A model generated the notes under the pieces. The model was not told the DNA's origin and searched no databases. It saw only the letters and a program-made list of their open reading frames with translations. A DNA stretch of 64,000 nucleotides from Lachnospiraceae bacterium (lineage in GTDB: Bacteria; Bacillota; Clostridia; Lachnospirales; Lachnospiraceae). Below are positions 55 to 54,184 of the stretch, piece after piece (positions within the stretch are counted from its first letter, which is position 1; the number at the start of each line of letters is the position of its first letter). The position numbers and the translations under genes are program-made. The DNA lies in assembly GCA_016284315.1 (NCBI GenBank), contig JAEEOO010000012.1:1-64000 (forward strand). The letters are read 5' to 3'.

Positions 55-2436
55 ATGGAACTTAAGATCGCACTTGCAGGTAACCCCAACTGCGGTAAAA
101 CAACTTTGTTTAACGCACTTACCGGTTCAAACCAGTTTGTGGGTAACTGGCCCGGAGTAACAGTAGAGAAAAAGGAAGGTAAGCTTAGAAAGCATGATGA
201 CGTTGTTATCACCGACCTTCCCGGAATATACTCACTTTCTCCTTATACACTTGAGGAAGTGGTAGCAAGAAATTATCTTATCAACGAAAGACCTGATGCA
301 ATCCTTAACCTTGTTGACGGTACAAACCTTGAGAGAAACCTTTATCTTACAACACAGCTCATCGAGCTTGGAATCCCTGTTGTTATCGCAATCAACATGA
401 TGGACGTTGTAAGAAAGAACGGCGACAAGATCGACACCAAGGAACTTGCAAAGAAACTTGGATGCCAGATCATCGAGATCTCAGCTCTTAAGGGCGAAGG
501 AATCGTTGATGCCGCTGATGCCGCTATCAAGGCAGCTATCGAGCACAAAGAGATCCCTCATCACACCTTCTCAGGTGCAGTTGAGCATGCTCTTGCACAT
601 ATTGAGGAAGCAGCGATCCATGACATGGATCCCGAAAAGCAGAGATGGTATTCCATCAAGATCTTCGAAAGAGATGAGAAGATCATCGAACAGCTTAAGA
701 TCGACAAGCAGGCTATAGAGCATATCGAGACAGATATCGTAGCTGCTGAAAAAGAACTTGATGACGATGCAGAATCAATCATCACCAATGAGAGATATAT
801 CTACATCGCAGAACTCTTAAAGGGTGTTTATAAAAAGAAGAACAAAGGCGGTCTTACCGTTTCCGATAAGATCGACAAGGTTGTTACCAACAGATGGCTT
901 GCACTTCCTATTTTCGCAGCCGTTATGTTCATTGTTTATTACGTTTCAATCACAACCATCGGAACCATGGGTACCGATTTTGTAAATGACGGTGTATTCG
1001 GTGATGGATTCCATCTCTTCGGAATCGGTGTTTCAGAATACGAAGAAGCAGCTACCGAATATGCAAAAGAAAATGTTTGGACAGAAGACGTTATTGATAC
1101 TGTGACCAAGGCTTCCGAAGCGGGAGTTATCGGCGCAGATGATATCCTCGGCACCATTGAGGATGAAGATTTCGGCGGATTTGAAGAGGCTTATGAAACT
1201 TATGCCGATTCACTTGCAGAAGAGGGATTCGAGATCTCCGAAGCAGTTGACGCTGCTCTTGAAGAGGCTCCCGATACCGCTGAATACGGCGTATGGGTTC
1301 CTTCAATCCCTGCTCTTGTTTCTACCGGACTTGAAAACATCGGTTGTGCTGAGTGGCTTGAGAGCCTTATCGTAGACGGTATCATCGCCGGTGTCGGTGC
1401 GGTTCTCGGATTCGTTCCTCAGATGCTTGTACTCTTCATTTTCCTTGCATTCCTTGAGGCATGCGGATATATGGCGAGAGTTGCATTCGTAATGGACCGT
1501 ATCTTCAGAAAGTTCGGCCTTTCCGGAAAATCCTTCATTCCTATGCTTATCGGTACAGGATGCGGTGTTCCCGGTGTTATGGCTTCAAGAACCATCGAGA
1601 ATGAGCGTGATCGTCGTATGACCATCATGACAACAACATTTATCCCCTGCGGAGCTAAGCTTCCTATCATCGCTCTTATTTCAGCAGCGCTTTTCGGAAA
1701 CTCTCCCTGGATTGCTCCTTCAGCATACTTTATCGGTGTAGCGGCTATCGTTATCTCCGGTATCGTCCTTAAGAAGACCAAGATGTTCTCCGGTCAGCCC
1801 GCTCCTTTCGTTATGGAGCTCCCTGCTTACCACTGGCCTACATTCGGAAACGTAATGCGTTCAATGTGGGAGAGAGGATGGTCATTCATCAAGAAGGCAG
1901 GAACCGTTATCCTTCTTGCAACCATCGTTATCTGGGCAGGCAGCCGTTTTGGAATGGTTGACGGTAAGTTTGGATTCTCAACTGAGATGGAACTTGAGAG
2001 CAGCTTACTTGGAATCATCGGAGCACCTCTTTCATATATCTTCAGACCTGTTGGATTCGGTAACATCCGTGCTACCATCGCTACCATCATGGGTCTTGTT
2101 GCTAAGGAAGAAGTTGTCGGAGTATTCGGAGTACTTGATTTCGAAGGACTTACAAGACTTGCAGGATTCTCATTCCTTATCTTCAACCTTCTCTGCGCAC
2201 CTTGCTTTGCTGCCATCGGTGCCATCAAGAGAGAGATGAACAGTGCAAAGTGGACATGGTTTGCCATTGGTTATCAGTGCTTCTTTGCATATGCCATCGC
2301 ACTTATCGTATTCCAGATCGGAAGCATCTTTACCGGTGCAGCTAATGTATTTGGAATCATCGCAGCAGTAATTGTACTTGCAGTAATCTTGTTTATGTTA
2401 TTCAAGCCTTATAAGGAGGCTACAGAGCTTAAGTAA
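55..2436 (+). CDS. feoB: Ferrous iron transport protein B
   Basis: FeoB is the GTPase-gated inner-membrane Fe2+ importer. The N-terminal G domain shows G1 GNPNCGKT (residues 9-16), G3 DLPG (54-57), G4 NMMD (114-117) and a G5-like SAL (143-145). A helical domain follows, then the membrane part from about residue 281. Typical FeoB membrane motifs are present: the GYMARVAFVMDR stretch (about 471-482), GTGCGVPGVMASR (500-512) and IPCGAKLP (530-537). At 793 residues it is longer than many FeoBs, because of an acidic stretch of about 90 residues (roughly 326-416) after the first membrane helix, probably an external loop. An AAGGAGTAGAGAG ribosome site precedes the ATG. It forms an operon with the feoA end upstream and the Cys-rich/HMA gene 2 bases downstream. 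Confidence 0.97.
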   Translation: MELKIALAGNPNCGKTTLFNALTGSNQFVGNWPGVTVEKKEGKLRKHDDVVITDLPGIYSLSPYTLEEVVARNYLINERPDAILNLVDGTNLERNLYLTTQLIELGIPVVIAINMMDVVRKNGDKIDTKELAKKLGCQIIEISALKGEGIVDAADAAIKAAIEHKEIPHHTFSGAVEHALAHIEEAAIHDMDPEKQRWYSIKIFERDEKIIEQLKIDKQAIEHIETDIVAAEKELDDDAESIITNERYIYIAELLKGVYKKKNKGGLTVSDKIDKVVTNRWLALPIFAAVMFIVYYVSITTIGTMGTDFVNDGVFGDGFHLFGIGVSEYEEAATEYAKENVWTEDVIDTVTKASEAGVIGADDILGTIEDEDFGGFEEAYETYADSLAEEGFEISEAVDAALEEAPDTAEYGVWVPSIPALVSTGLENIGCAEWLESLIVDGIIAGVGAVLGFVPQMLVLFIFLAFLEACGYMARVAFVMDRIFRKFGLSGKSFIPMLIGTGCGVPGVMASRTIENERDRRMTIMTTTFIPCGAKLPIIALISAALFGNSPWIAPSAYFIGVAAIVISGIVLKKTKMFSGQPAPFVMELPAYHWPTFGNVMRSMWERGWSFIKKAGTVILLATIVIWAGSRFGMVDGKFGFSTEMELESSLLGIIGAPLSYIFRPVGFGNIRATIATIMGLVAKEEVVGVFGVLDFEGLTRLAGFSFLIFNLLCAPCFAAIGAIKREMNSAKWTWFAIGYQCFFAYAIALIVFQIGSIFTGAANVFGIIAAVIVLAVILFMLFKPYKEATELK

Positions 2437-12448: not shown

Positions 12449-15031
12449 ATGGCTGCATTTGAACGCGTTTTGTCCGGAATTCCGGAGATGGATAAGGCTC
12501 TTGATAATATAAGGCTTGGAGACAATGTTGTCTTTAGAGTCTCTGACCTTTCTGAGTTTAAATTGTTTGTAGACCCTTACGTTGAGCAGGCGAAAAAGGA
12601 CAAGCGAAATATTATTTATTTCAGGTTTGCCAGCCATGAACCTTTGGTGGAAGACTGTACCGAAGTAAAGACTTATAACGTTCCACTGACACACCGCTTT
12701 GAAACCTTTACTGTGGACATCCACAATATCATCGAACAAGAAGGTAAGGATGCCTTCTATGTTTTTGATTGCTTGTCCGAGCTTCAGATCCGCTGGGCCA
12801 CAGACCTTATGATGGGTAATTTCTTTAGGGTCACATGCCCGTTTCTTTTTATTCTTGATACTGTAGCTTTCTTCCCGATAATCAGGGGAAAGCATTCTTT
12901 TCACGCGGTCAATAAGATCCTTAATACAACTCAGCTTTTTCTTGACGTTTATTCTGATGAAAAAAATGTATATGTTCGTCCCGAAAAGGTTTGGAACAGG
13001 GATTCGGAGACCATGTTCCTGCCTCATATTTACAAAAAGGAAGAAGGCACATTTAGACCGATATTGGACGGTGTACAATCAAGCCGTTTTTATAGGCTCC
13101 TAAATGAGTTTCAAAGGCCGGGAGAAGAGCAGTACATCGACTTCTGGGATAAATTCTTTAATACTGCCAAAACCCAATATGACAGCAAGATGGACATGAC
13201 AGAGTCCTGTAACATGATGTGCAATATCATGATGACCAGAGACGAAAAGATGAGGCTTATGGTAAAAAAGCATTTTAAGCCCGAGGATTATTTTGCTACT
13301 AGAAGCCATATGATAGGCACGGGTCTTGTTGGCGGAAAGGCCTGCGGTATGCTTCTTGCAAGAGCGATAATCCGTAACGTAAGCCCTGAGATCAATGAGG
13401 TTATGGAGCCCCATGATTCCTTCTTTGTGGGCTCGGATGTATATTATACATATATCGTTGATAATGAGTTCTGGGATCTGCGCATCAGGCAGAGGACGGA
13501 TGAGGAGTATTTTTCTGTTGCAGATGAGTTTGCGGAAAAATTAAAAACAGGATCATTCTCCGAGGATCTCGAGACGCAGTTTAAACATATTCTTGAGTAC
13601 TACGGGCAGGATCCGTTTATAGTGCGTTCCAGCAGTATCCTCGAGGATGGTTTTGGAAATGCCTTCGCCGGCAAATATGAATCGGTTTTTTGCGCAAACA
13701 GAGGTACCTTAGAGGAAAGGCTTGAGGAATTTGAAAATGCCATAAGGACGGTTTATGCCAGCACCATGAGTCTTTCTGCGCTTGATTACAGAAAAAGACG
13801 TGGCCTTGAAAAACGTGATGAGCAGATGGCACTGCTTATACAGAGGGTTTCGGGTTCTTATTACGGACCTTATTATATGCCCTGCGCTGCAGGTGTCGGA
13901 TATTCCTACAGCCCTTATAAATTCCTGGCAGGGATCGATCAAAAAGCAGGAATGCTTAGGCTGGTAATGGGACTTGGAACATCTGCTGTTGATAGAACCA
14001 TTGGTTCGTATCCGAGACTTGTCAGTCTTGATATGCCGGAAGTAACTTCTTCTGTTACTGTGGCGGAAAAGCATCAGTTTTCTCAGAGGGCTGTTGAGGC
14101 GGTGGATGTAAATGAGCATAAGCTGAAACGCCTTGAGCTGAAAGAAGTTGAGGGCAAACTGCCTATATACATGATCAATACGCTTCTTGAACATGACTAT
14201 GAGGTGGAAGATTCATTAAGAGAGCGGGGCATCAACCGGGATGTGAGGTTTATCTCATGCAAAGGTCTTGTGAAAAAAGAGATCATAATGAAGCAGATGC
14301 AGCAGCTGATGCAGATCATACAGGAAGAATATGAGCATCCTGTAGACATTGAATTTACAATGAATCTTTCGGAAAATGGGGAGTATTCTATAAACCTTTT
14401 ACAGTGCAGGCCACTTCAGGTTTTTAAGGACACAGCGGCTGTTACTGTTCCTGAAAGCGTTCCGGAGGAAAACATTATTCTTGAAACCATTGGTTCTTCC
14501 ATGGGGCTTTCTAGAAGCGTTCCTATCGATCTTGTAGTCTATGTTGATCCGAAGGCGTATTATGAAATGCCATATGCTGACAAGCCAAACATCGCAAGGA
14601 TCATAGGTAAGGTGAACTGGACTTTCAGAGGTCAGAACAGGCATATGATGCTCATGGTTCCGGGTCGTATAGGAACATCATCTCCTGAACTCGGAGTTCC
14701 CACTACATTTGCTGACATAAGCGAATTTGAGGCGGTTTGTGAAATAGAGGAAAAGGAAGCGGGTTATAATCCGGAGCTGTCTTATGGAAGCCATATCTTC
14801 CAGGATCTTGTTGAGGCAGACATCCTTTACACTGCAGTTTTTGCCAATGAAAAGACACAGCATTTTTCACCGGATAAACTAAAAGGCTTTACAAATATCA
14901 TTTCTGAATTCAGCGATTCAGACAAGGATACTGATATTGTTAAAATCTTTGATATGAAAGGCTCTGAATGTAGCCTGCTTTATGATCTTGAAAACAATCA
15001 TCTGCTCCTACAAAAGACTACAAAATCTTAA
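12449..15031 (+). CDS. PEP/pyruvate-binding (PPDK N-terminal) domain protein
   Basis: 860 residues from the ATG after TTGGAGGGACAAACT; upstream in-frame codons run through the repeat and leader hairpin and are not coding. Residues about 1-230 resemble a RecA/KaiC-like fold (GIPEMDKALDNIRLGDNV) without a proper P-loop. Residues about 290-660 match the ATP-grasp N-terminal domain of pyruvate phosphate dikinase: TGLVGGKACGMLLA, IVRSSSILEDGFGNAFAGK (R393) and the closing LLQCRPLQVF. The swivelling phospho-His and PEP-binding domains of true PPDK are not seen; a tail of about 200 residues (GTSSPELGVPTTFADIS) follows. It is therefore unlikely to be a complete PPDK, and the substrate is unknown. Confidence 0.85.
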   Translation: MAAFERVLSGIPEMDKALDNIRLGDNVVFRVSDLSEFKLFVDPYVEQAKKDKRNIIYFRFASHEPLVEDCTEVKTYNVPLTHRFETFTVDIHNIIEQEGKDAFYVFDCLSELQIRWATDLMMGNFFRVTCPFLFILDTVAFFPIIRGKHSFHAVNKILNTTQLFLDVYSDEKNVYVRPEKVWNRDSETMFLPHIYKKEEGTFRPILDGVQSSRFYRLLNEFQRPGEEQYIDFWDKFFNTAKTQYDSKMDMTESCNMMCNIMMTRDEKMRLMVKKHFKPEDYFATRSHMIGTGLVGGKACGMLLARAIIRNVSPEINEVMEPHDSFFVGSDVYYTYIVDNEFWDLRIRQRTDEEYFSVADEFAEKLKTGSFSEDLETQFKHILEYYGQDPFIVRSSSILEDGFGNAFAGKYESVFCANRGTLEERLEEFENAIRTVYASTMSLSALDYRKRRGLEKRDEQMALLIQRVSGSYYGPYYMPCAAGVGYSYSPYKFLAGIDQKAGMLRLVMGLGTSAVDRTIGSYPRLVSLDMPEVTSSVTVAEKHQFSQRAVEAVDVNEHKLKRLELKEVEGKLPIYMINTLLEHDYEVEDSLRERGINRDVRFISCKGLVKKEIIMKQMQQLMQIIQEEYEHPVDIEFTMNLSENGEYSINLLQCRPLQVFKDTAAVTVPESVPEENIILETIGSSMGLSRSVPIDLVVYVDPKAYYEMPYADKPNIARIIGKVNWTFRGQNRHMMLMVPGRIGTSSPELGVPTTFADISEFEAVCEIEEKEAGYNPELSYGSHIFQDLVEADILYTAVFANEKTQHFSPDKLKGFTNIISEFSDSDKDTDIVKIFDMKGSECSLLYDLENNHLLLQKTTKS

Positions 15032-15037
15032 GAATTT

Positions 15038-15072
15038 GTTCGATTGATTTACTCGAACAGCTGTTCTATAAT
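15038..15072 (+). promoter_or_regulatory. SOS-type promoter with LexA-like operator
   Basis: The -35 TTGATT (15044-15049), exactly 17 bases, then -10 TATAAT (15067-15072). Inside the spacer lies the perfect palindrome GAACAGCTGTTC (15055-15066), which fits the Firmicute LexA pattern GAAC-N4-GTTC and abuts the -10. GTTCGA (15038-15043) and TCGAAC (15053-15058) form a second inverted pair. The preceding 18 bases TTAAGAATTTGTTCGATT recur before the Y-family polymerase at 52633-52650. Confidence 0.75.
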
Positions 15073-15078
15073 AAATTT

Positions 15079-15150
15079 ATGAATGAGATATCAATGGTAC
15101 CATGCTTATTCAAATTTATGTACGGAGGGTTTTTACAAGTCGACTTTTAG
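15079..15150 (+). other. Possible 23-codon leader ORF in frame with the Rpn gene
   Basis: An ATG 6 bases after the -10 box opens 23 codons (MNEISMVPCLFKFMYGGFL...) ending with TAG at 15148-15150, in the same frame as the Rpn gene that starts at 15163. TTTATGAATGA occurs at both starts (15076-15086 and 15160-15170). It may be a leaderless micro-ORF or the trace of an 84-base insertion or duplication. Coding status is unproven. Confidence 0.3.
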
Positions 15151-15162
15151 TTTTACGTTTTT

Positions 15163-16020
15163 ATGAATGAAGTAAGACGTGATATTCAGAATACGGTTTT
15201 TATGGATCTTTTCGGAAGGAAAGATAAGAAATATTTAATCCAGTTATACCAGGCACTGCATCCGGAAGATGTTTCTGCCACAATAGATGATCTTGATCTT
15301 GTTACGATTGAAAATATAATAACCAATGGCATATACAATGACCTTGGATTTCTCGCAAGGAAAAAGCTTGTGATTCTCATTGAGGCTCAGAGTACATGGA
15401 GTCCCAATATTATCTTAAGGATTTTTATGTACCTCGCTAAGACGTACAATGAGTATATCTTCAATAACCCGGAATTAAAGGCGAAACTTTACAGTAACTC
15501 TAAAATCGAGGTGCCGAAACCGGAGTTGTATGTTCTTTACACGGGAGAAAAAGGGAATAAGCCGGAGATCTTATCGCTTAGGGAAGAGTTCTTTTCAACA
15601 TCTGAATTTTTGATTGACCTTCAAGCGAAAGTCATCTTTGCGGAAAAGGGAAGAAGGGACATAATCGGGCAGTATATTAGCTTTTGTGTAGTTGTAAAAG
15701 AGCAGTTTTTGTTGCATAATGATAAAAAGAAAGCAATTGCGGAAGCCATTCGGATTTGCATTGAGAATGACGATCTTGCAGAGTATCTGACGCAACACAG
15801 GAAGGAGGTAGAGGACGTTATGTTTACTTTACTTACCCAAGAAGAAGCTACGGAAAGTTATGGTTACCTCCAGAGGATGGAGGGACGCACCGAAGCGCTT
15901 GCAGCAACAATTAATCTGTTGAAACCTGTTTATAAGGATTTCGACTCTCTTTATAGGGCACTTATCACTCAGGATGCATATGCTAATCTCACAGAAGATG
16001 AGGTAAGGAAATACTATTGA
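15163..16020 (+). CDS. Rpn family recombination-promoting nuclease / PD-(D/E)XK transposase-like protein
   Basis: 285 residues. The opening RDIQNTVFMDLFG and the core NDLGFLARKKLVILIEAQS (with D60, E74 and Q76) mark the PD-(D/E)XK nuclease fold of the Rpn/YhgA and PDDEXK transposase-like family. Rpn proteins in enterobacteria are Ca- or Mg-dependent DNA endonucleases that raise RecA-independent recombination; the role here is inferred. It ends with the usual variable helical tail (LTEDEVRKYY). The start lacks a ribosome site just upstream; the nearest GGAGGG is 34 bases away. The gene lies behind an SOS-type promoter and before an intrinsic terminator. Confidence 0.88.
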   Translation: MNEVRRDIQNTVFMDLFGRKDKKYLIQLYQALHPEDVSATIDDLDLVTIENIITNGIYNDLGFLARKKLVILIEAQSTWSPNIILRIFMYLAKTYNEYIFNNPELKAKLYSNSKIEVPKPELYVLYTGEKGNKPEILSLREEFFSTSEFLIDLQAKVIFAEKGRRDIIGQYISFCVVVKEQFLLHNDKKKAIAEAIRICIENDDLAEYLTQHRKEVEDVMFTLLTQEEATESYGYLQRMEGRTEALAATINLLKPVYKDFDSLYRALITQDAYANLTEDEVRKYY

Positions 16021-16053: not shown

Positions 16054-16090
16054 AAAGACTCAGATCTGTATAAGATTTGAGTCTTTTATT
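16054..16090 (+). terminator. Rho-independent terminator after the Rpn gene
   Basis: AAAGACTCAGATCT (16054-16067) pairs with AGATTTGAGTCTTT (16073-16086) around a short loop, followed by a T-rich run. A near copy lies at 18720-18755. Confidence 0.88.
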
Positions 16091-52602: not shown

Positions 52603-52634
52603 AACAGGAGACGATTTAGTCCCCTGTTTTTTTT
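52603..52634 (+). terminator. Rho-independent terminator before the Y-family polymerase
   Basis: AACAGGAGAC (52603-52612) pairs with GTCCCCTGTT (52619-52628), one mismatch, followed by T residues to 52634. It isolates the polymerase promoter from upstream transcription. Confidence 0.88.
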
Positions 52635-52642
52635 AAGAATTT

Positions 52643-52677
52643 GTTCGATTTACTTTAGCGAACAAAGTTTCTATAAT
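52643..52677 (+). promoter_or_regulatory. SOS-type promoter of the Y-family polymerase
   Basis: -35 TTTACT (52649-52654), 17 bases, -10 TATAAT (52672-52677). GTTCG (52643-52647) and CGAAC (52659-52663) form one inverted pair, and GAACAAAGTTTC (52660-52671) resembles GAAC-N4-GTTC with one mismatch, ending at the -10. The preceding TTAAGAATTTGTTCGATT is identical to that before the Rpn gene. The start codon lies 11 bases after the -10, so the message is nearly leaderless. Confidence 0.75.
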
Positions 52678-52687
52678 TAATCTTGGT

Positions 52688-54184
52688 ATGGAAAGAACAT
52701 ATATTGCCATTGACTTAAAATCATTTTATGCGTCGGTTGAGTGCGTGGAAAGAGGACTTGATCCTCTTGTAACAAACCTAGTAGTTGCGGACTCTACAAG
52801 AACCGACAAAACAATCTGCCTGGCGGTTTCGCCGGGCTTAAAGTCGTATGGCGTTCCCGGTCGTCCAAGGCTTTTTGAAGTAAAGCAGGCTGTTAACAAT
52901 ATTAATAAAGCAAGACTTTCGAAGGCTCCGGGTAAGACGTTCACAGGAAAATCGGAGTTTACTGACAAACTTGCACAGGATCCTTCTTTGGAACTGGATT
53001 TTGTATGTGCTGTTCCCAGAATGAACCTGTACATGACTTACAGTACCAATATAGTTTCGATTTATTTGAGGTATATTGCGCCTGAAGACATTCATATTTA
53101 TTCCTGCGATGAGGTATTTATGGATGTTACGGGCTACCTTCGTACATATAAAATGACAGCTCATGAGCTTGCCCTTAAGATGGTTCGAGAGGTCCTTAGT
53201 GAGACCGGAATAACTGCAACCGCAGGCATAGGTTCAAATATGTATCTTTGTAAGATTGCTATGGATATTATGGCAAAGAAGATGCCTGCCGATAAGGATG
53301 GAGTCCGTATTGCAGAGCTTACGGAGCGGTCGTATAGAGAACAGCTCTGGGACCACCGTCCCCTTACTTCATTTTGGGGGCTTGGCCCCGGAACGGCAAG
53401 GCGTCTTGAAAGACTTGGACTCTTTACCATGGGCGATGTGGCAAAGTTTTCTGAAAGCTGCGAAGATACGCTTTACAGGGAGTTTGGCGTTAAAGCGGAG
53501 ATACTTATTGACCATGCCTGGGGATGGGAGCCCTGCACAATTGAAGAGATCAAGAATTATAAACCTACAACAAACAGTATTAGTTCAGGGCAGGTTTTGA
53601 TGCGCCCTTATGCCTATGACGAGGCCGCCATTATTGTTCGTGAAATGACTGACCTTTTGGCAGTTGATCTTGTAAAGAAGGGGGTTAAGACTGATAGGTT
53701 GACTCTAACACTTGGCTATGAGAGCTTTGCTGATGCTAAGGAAGCGGCATCGTTTAAAGGTGAAATTTCGGTGGACAGATACGGAAGGCTGACACCAAAG
53801 TATGCTCATGGAACTGCGAACCTTCATGGATATAGCGACTCATTGACCAAGATCGTTGACTCGGTTATGAAGCTTTATGATGAGATCACTGATGAGAAAC
53901 TGATGGTTAGAAGAGTGACCATCGCTGCATGCAATCTCTTGAGGAGAGAGGATGTACCTGAAGAGTCGGAAGTCCATCAGTTAAGCCTTTTTGAAGACTT
54001 TGAAACCGAGTCTGAACAGAAAAAGAAGGACGAGGAACGTGAGGAAAAGGAAAGAGCCCTTGCTCTCGCCGAGATTAACATCAAGAAGCGCTACGGCAAA
54101 AATGCCATAATAAAAGGCACCAACCTTCTGGAAGGTGCCACAACTATTGAACGTAATAACCAGGTCGGCGGGCATAAAGCCTAG
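52688..54184 (+). CDS. Y-family (UmuC/DinB-like) DNA polymerase
   Basis: 498 residues. The opening TYIAIDLKSFYASVECVERG has the first catalytic aspartate and the family Y/F pattern, YSCDEVFMDVTGYL the second acidic group (D-E), followed by TGITATAGIGSNMYLCKIA and the helix-hairpin FWGLGPGTARRLERLG. A beta-clamp-binding motif QLSLF starts at residue 431. It should copy damaged DNA with low fidelity. The C-terminal 60 residues are charged and helical. The start is almost leaderless, with no ribosome site seen. The gene is behind an SOS-type promoter. Confidence 0.94.
   Translation: MERTYIAIDLKSFYASVECVERGLDPLVTNLVVADSTRTDKTICLAVSPGLKSYGVPGRPRLFEVKQAVNNINKARLSKAPGKTFTGKSEFTDKLAQDPSLELDFVCAVPRMNLYMTYSTNIVSIYLRYIAPEDIHIYSCDEVFMDVTGYLRTYKMTAHELALKMVREVLSETGITATAGIGSNMYLCKIAMDIMAKKMPADKDGVRIAELTERSYREQLWDHRPLTSFWGLGPGTARRLERLGLFTMGDVAKFSESCEDTLYREFGVKAEILIDHAWGWEPCTIEEIKNYKPTTNSISSGQVLMRPYAYDEAAIIVREMTDLLAVDLVKKGVKTDRLTLTLGYESFADAKEAASFKGEISVDRYGRLTPKYAHGTANLHGYSDSLTKIVDSVMKLYDEITDEKLMVRRVTIAACNLLRREDVPEESEVHQLSLFEDFETESEQKKKDEEREEKERALALAEINIKKRYGKNAIIKGTNLLEGATTIERNNQVGGHKA

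Follow-up and report, generated by a model that had tools for sequence, protein, structure and literature searches.

The window analysed here is the whole stretch of 64,000 nucleotides (positions 1 to 64,000 of the forward strand of contig JAEEOO010000012.1, assembly GCA_016284315.1), and all window features given below lie on its plus strand. At 15163..16020 an ORF of 285 aa, rpnL, was found, and Pfam and alignments indicated that it encodes an Rpn-like PD-(D/E)XK nuclease. The gene is preceded by a promoter with a LexA-type box and followed, at 16054..16087, by a terminator-like inverted repeat, which was recognized by eye and was absent from the promoter/terminator scan listing.

The identity of the protein was examined first against curated families. 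The window protein matched Pfam PDDEXK_2 (PF12784) with an E-value of 0.00012 and 22.3 bits, against a cut-off of 27.4, and gave no match to TIGR01784 at E <= 10. A second copy of the gene, located on contig C24 of the same genome and 97% identical to the window rpn over residues 1-248, reached 20.1 bits with TIGR01784 (cut-off 52.1). Seven proteins were scanned in total, three of which matched PF12784 and three TIGR01784, every score being under the cut-off. Among 48 aligned homologues, matches at E <= 0.001 were obtained with TIGR01784 for 15, with PF12784 for five and with PF04754 for four. Fourteen positions were invariant in all 48, including N59, D60, E74, Q76, N82 and R86. A profile of the homologues aligned with E. 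coli RpnA, a single-sequence target, over 82 columns with a probability of 95.7, and paired D60 (15340-15342), E74 (15382-15384), Q76 (15388-15390) and R86 (15418-15420) with RpnA D63, E82, Q84 and R94; according to the accessible text of PMC5350276, changing these four RpnA residues abolished or reduced its function. The sequence-only reading had called the gene an Rpn nuclease. The alignment of the catalytic residues with RpnA spoke for that identity, but the protein did not reach the curated threshold of either PF12784 or TIGR01784, and the name "Rpn-like" was therefore adopted. The AlphaFold model was mediocre (mean pLDDT 68) and its fold search against the PDB gave no significant match, nor did a PDB sequence search give any match. 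In PADLOC-DB 2.0.0, the window protein and the C2 copy of the roe deer omasum MAG RGIG4443 (G014) had no match at E <= 1, and for the C24 copy a single weak match (E 0.016) was obtained, located among its repeats.

Upstream of rpnL, the promoter scan detected a -35 hexamer TTGATT (15044..15049) and a -10 hexamer TATAAT (15067..15072) separated by a 17-base spacer, with 10 of 12 matches to the consensus promoter. The arrangement noticed beforehand, a perfect palindrome enclosed by this pair and abutting the -10, was seen at 15044-15072: the LexA-type box GAACAGCTGTTC forms the last 12 bases of the spacer (15055..15066) and adjoins TATAAT. The pattern GAACN4GTTC occurred once in the window, where shuffles led to 0.91 being expected, so that the bare box is within chance; what raises the rpn box above chance is its context, namely the boxes of lexA and recA, its matrix rank and its conservation in 6/6 clade promoters. 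The presence of a further complete LexA box within TTAAGAATNTGTTCG was considered by eye and rejected because its spacing was wrong. The upstream segment GTTCGATT was conserved. The leader, with an assumed transcription start, spans 15079..15162, and its sole GGAGG lies at 15124-15128, 39 nt 5' of the rpnL start. This distance was 36-39 nt in six clade copies, none having a closer GGAGG, and translation initiation of RpnL may be weak, as the distant GGAGG suggests. A translated leader peptide was discarded, since the short upstream ORFs were absent from the G014 C17 and C24 copies.

A search for GAACN4GTTC through the genome, a 2.25 Mb draft that is 81% complete, had been proposed along with the box. 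It returned 18 sites, two of them preceding rpn copies, one just 5' of the lexA DNA-binding domain match and one just 5' of recA. A lexA gene is thus present, and its protein matched both Pfam LexA_DNA_bind and Peptidase_S24; inspection by eye also revealed an Ala-Gly site together with Ser and Lys residues, as in a cleavable LexA. The promoters of lexA and recA carry the same type of box as the rpn promoter and, as regards membership in the LexA/SOS regulon of this genome, the rpn box both overlaps its promoter and matches the lexA/recA type. Neither of two refuting circumstances named beforehand, a missing lexA or a different box at lexA and recA, thus arose. Perfect boxes were also observed before a TPR gene and before a gene presumed to be of gyrB type (L007 and L011, respectively).

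Furthermore, a matrix was built from 29 distinct sites of other genomes, located at further SOS genes; a TATAAT-containing pattern had guided part of the choice of these loci, which favours the right flank and not the central bases. With this matrix, the window rpn box scored 21.7, the best of 63,983 window positions. The scores in the same genome were 19.3 for recA, 15.2 for the gyrB-type gene, 13.1 for lexA and 8.9 for the TPR gene, and those of the 12 other non-rpn box sites ranged from 2.1 to 9.9.

Across 31 genomes of the genus, GAACN4GTTCTATAAT was matched at <=1 mismatch in 27, giving 53 sites, whereas the backward control gave 34; many of the one-mismatch matches are therefore chance, and the excess is modest only. 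Perfect matches numbered six in these 31 genomes, and five of them were rpn promoters. The sixth (G014 C15:201899; L098 near 900) was located before an unnamed gene of about 165 codons. Thirty loci from the 53 matches and additional fetched loci were surveyed, counting sites only near the starts of ORFs of >=60 aa. In the loci examined, a recA box was present in 11 loci of 11 genus genomes, ending at TATTAT or TATATT, and the box was found, with one-mismatch sites, before the polymerase and before genes presumably corresponding to uvrB and a HAD-type protein.

The conservation of the box was analysed in six clade promoters: those of the window and of C24, that of SRR873601_bin.64, whose gene is 98% identical, and three of the G014 MAG. 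TTAAGAATNTGTTCGATT, CGAACN4GTTC and TATAAT were kept in 6/6. All eight box positions and TATAAT were invariant and all four central positions were variable; for eight random columns, the chance of all being invariant was 0.0002 over the 21 columns from the 18-mer described below to the -10, and 0.003 when all 147 columns starting at the 18-mer were drawn on. These six promoters are related and do not represent independent events, and a single species may account for two of the three assemblies. Taken with the boxes of lexA and recA and with the matrix rank, this conservation backed the proposal that the palindrome is a site of LexA repression, and LexA very probably represses RpnL.

More distant relatives were examined in two homologue sets. 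The first comprised 33 matches, three of them without a locus, and 28 were examined after leaving out a remnant (L065) and a contig-edge piece (L066); the second comprised 54 matches, with <=5 candidates scored per genome on a first look, and 30 with loci were examined, three distant ones being also in the first set. No perfect promoter box was found before any of 49 more distant Rpn-like genes, one of which (L157) had only 41 nt upstream. The contrast between 6/6 in the clade and 0/49 outside it indicates that the wiring is local, and LexA control of rpn looks like a feature of this clade. LexA boxes before Rpn-like genes in general were considered and rejected, as a one-mismatch site in G019 and a perfect one in L160, the latter by eye just inside the coding start, were both attributed to chance. 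In tblastn searches, no match came from plasmids and three distant ones (<32% identity) from phages, and one relative, without the box, was found among viral contigs.

Additionally, the gene was inspected for a second, internal product. Identical codons in five rpn genes amounted to 52 of 142 informative ones, and unbroken invariant runs of 9 and 10 were located at codons 177-187 and 214-225; both runs together appeared in 0/100,000 permutations. Since the five genes are related, two pairs of them being nearly identical, codon independence is overstated by the permutation, but only to the extent that relatedness varies along the gene. The first run holds TTGTAA-17-CATAAT (15692..15720), a putative rpnS promoter with 9/12 matches and without a LexA box, further promoter-like sites being present elsewhere in the rpn gene. 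The second holds the internal ribosome-binding site AAGGAGGT and an ATG at codon 220 (15802..15822, the ATG at 15820), placed before the variable C-terminal domain. The two invariant runs fit an internal promoter and a start for RpnS, predicted as an antitoxin consisting of the C-terminal 66 residues in the same frame (15820..16020), for which the family precedent is PMC10327210. An internal Shine-Dalgarno sequence and start between codons 209 and 228 were found in 20/26 and 25/30 homologues (two sets with four genes in common); under synonymous shuffling, such a pair arose somewhere in the region at a rate of 3-52%, depending on the gene. Apart from the rpn box itself, the 12 highest-scoring matrix positions of the window all lay outside the rpn gene and its vicinity. 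The LexA-type box is, on the predicted layout, at the toxin start only, with none at the putative antitoxin start. A split wiring, with the toxin on an SOS switch and RpnS free of LexA on a constitutive internal start, is put forward tentatively, at roughly even odds. The window RpnS lacks EEGLKEG-type repeats, and its C-terminus resembles that of the G014 C2 copy, unlike that of the C24 copy.

The other rpn units of the genome could be given a different meaning. Contig C24 holds, besides the near-identical gene, an rpn remnant (L033, ~85-476, minus strand) that has lost the LexA box and the -10 but retains the 18-mer, the RpnS region and, between them, the internal promoter-like segment; it could be a stand-alone antitoxin. 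The two copies and the remnant have a left end in common at ~AAATCTTAAGAAT. A LexA-controlled rpn might be a spreading nuclease unit that takes the SOS response as its cue to copy or recombine, rather than a toxin protecting its host. The presence of such copies in one genome agrees with this, as do two reports in the parts of the sources available: that the SOS response promotes expression of an ISCR transposase (PMC13393415) and that RecA-independent recombination is increased by the Rpn proteins of E. coli (PMC5350276). Nevertheless, Zhong et al. (PMC10327210) reported an absence of both terminal repeats and autonomous transposition and considered transposase an improbable role for Rpn proteins, and the conservation of an internal antitoxin start is in keeping with a toxin-antitoxin. 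We consider a spreading unit unlikely, and favour LexA-gated release of a toxin.

Two further rpn remnants (L117 and L118, near 4001) were observed, in which the kept part begins at the same internal-promoter segment as in the C24 remnant. A short repeat like GGGGACGGGGT was present seven times in the window (12293, 12326, 20035, 40145, 52525, 52558 and 54231) against 0.42 expected, and also beside rpn units and remnants elsewhere. Contig C24 also carries a gene presumed to encode an SRAP/HMCES protein.

The 18-mer at the upstream edge of the rpn promoter (15028..15045) connects it with a second gene. TTAAGAATTTGTTCGATT was found exactly at 15028-15045 and 52633-52650, and two matches at <=3 mismatches appeared in 0/100 shuffles. 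The second copy opens the promoter (52633..52677) of a Y-family translesion polymerase (52688..54184; IMS, IMS_HHH and IMS_C domains), in which the 18-mer is followed by TTTACT, 17 bases, the imperfect box GAACAAAGTTTC (52660-52671) and TATAAT (52672-52677). This layout is that of the rpn promoter, with a box one mismatch away from GAACN4GTTC, which scored 8.9 with the matrix and ranked third in the window. The claim that rpn shares an SOS-type promoter with the polymerase held for the 18-mer, but the polymerase box was not perfect; likewise, the 18-mers before both genes were identical, but the genome contains four exact copies, the other two being on C24, one 5' of the near-identical rpn and one inside the remnant. 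The polymerase ATG lies 11 nt 3' of its own -10 (52672-52688), so that its mRNA would be nearly leaderless.

Among 30 polymerase loci fetched, the N-terminal match was present in 27. Within these 27, the window polymerase had its one-mismatch box, L123 a perfect box in promoter position (by eye), and L129 and L139 a perfect and a one-mismatch site, respectively, farther upstream; the remaining 23 had no box within 220 nt. Two shorter polymerase genes of G013 had a perfect box.

The TGTTCGATT part of the 18-mer recurs 5' of the -35 in SOS-type promoters of the genus. Promoters with TGTTCGATT and a box were found in L076, L100, L102, L105, L099, L106 and L151, and those of L076, L100, L105 and L151 stand before a small gene (MxAD.K.VDVICQHSRDG), which was seen in several genus members and one other genus and gave no Pfam match over a 60-residue stretch. 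Among 397 sampled genomes of the family, just two of which belonged to this genus, the exact extended pattern occurred in the present genome and in a single further one. Since TGTTCGATT recurs in other SOS-type promoters, the most likely source of the identity between the rpn and polymerase 18-mers is an SOS promoter type common in these bacteria. The same observations are compatible with a promoter captured from an SOS gene, either the polymerase or the small gene, in which case LexA control would be incidental and serve no function for rpn: both promoters have the identical 18-mer, and TGTTCGATT is found ahead of the small gene in other species as well as in another genus. In the six rpn promoters, however, GAAC and GTTC stayed intact amid changed neighbouring spacer bases, which suggests selection, and a captured promoter is unlikely, slightly more so than the spreading unit. 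A chance palindrome in an ordinary promoter, with no LexA binding, is very improbable: shuffles do give about one box per window, but this one has matrix rank 1 of 63,983, is conserved in 6/6 copies around a variable centre and sits in the promoter spacer as in the recA promoters of the genus.

The preferred reading, in which LexA gates RpnL, RpnS comes from a LexA-free start and damage frees RpnL, is given a probability of about 0.7 on the strength of these sequence comparisons. In an undamaged cell, LexA bound between the -35 and the -10 of the rpnL promoter would keep the toxin RpnL off, and RpnS would be produced from an internal promoter of its own with a strong ribosome-binding site, neither of which has a LexA box. 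DNA damage, for instance by a phage, would lead RecA to make LexA cleave itself. RpnL would then exceed RpnS and cut DNA, and this cutting would either end the infection along with the cell or feed the SOS response further. A role in phage- or damage-triggered cell sacrifice is plausible, as far as we infer.

In the tisB/istR and symE/symR systems, the toxin is LexA-repressed or SOS-induced and the antitoxin is made separately, and the control proposed here would be alike in both respects; unlike them, with their RNA antitoxins, the toxin and a protein antitoxin would here share one reading frame. In the text available to us, both are described as LexA-controlled toxin genes of E. coli (PMC9040746, PMC1891008). 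The Gram-positive LexA regulon of B. subtilis and C. difficile has the same GAACN4GTTC and controls lexA and recA, as given in the accessible part of PMC4234289; its C. difficile table includes one gene with a predicted box, labelled simply "Transposase". The phage defence AbpAB, likened here from its description in part of PMC10732053, has a similar damage trigger, being set off by phage SSB or host DNA damage.

As for the Rpn genes themselves, the accessible text of Zhong et al. (PMC10327210) reports that RpnS is made from inside the rpn gene and acts as an antitoxin, and that a start site of a short transcript exists within all E. coli rpn genes. The present gene is like the RpnL/RpnS genes described in parts of PMC5350276 and PMC10327210 in its aligned D, E-x-Q and R of RpnA, in its internal ribosome-binding site and start, and in the EEGLKEG-type repeats of the C-terminal part of the C24 copy. 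It is unlike them in the LexA-type box of its toxin promoter and in a protein that falls under the Pfam/NCBIfam cut-offs. The reverse arrow, by which Rpn proteins raise the SOS response, is documented in the same two sources, and the word LexA is absent from their accessible texts. The sequence-only reading had known of no description of a LexA-Rpn link, and none was found in the accessible part of the open-access literature searched. Three candidates were set aside as having, in the portions available, no bearing on LexA control: pseudogenes of this kind that are regulated by ComX in pneumococci (PMC6560143), a locus of C. perfringens (PMC11677781), and an Rpn entry together with lexA in one Leptospira expression table (PMC8055020).

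Rpn toxin-antitoxin genes and LexA-controlled toxins were therefore already known, and what appears new is a LexA-type box on an rpn toxin promoter. The release of RpnL was named as unresolved in the accessible text of PMC10327210, where regulated expression was suspected to contribute, and the sequence offers a concrete, testable switch for it. If the reading is true, DNA damage would shift the toxin:antitoxin ratio and thereby explain the release of RpnL; the circuit would also amplify itself, because Rpn nucleases raise the SOS response in E. coli. The SOS response of a Lachnospiraceae genus would then include a DNA-cutting toxin, in the form of a gene-within-gene toxin-antitoxin whose two products would be wired to different promoters.
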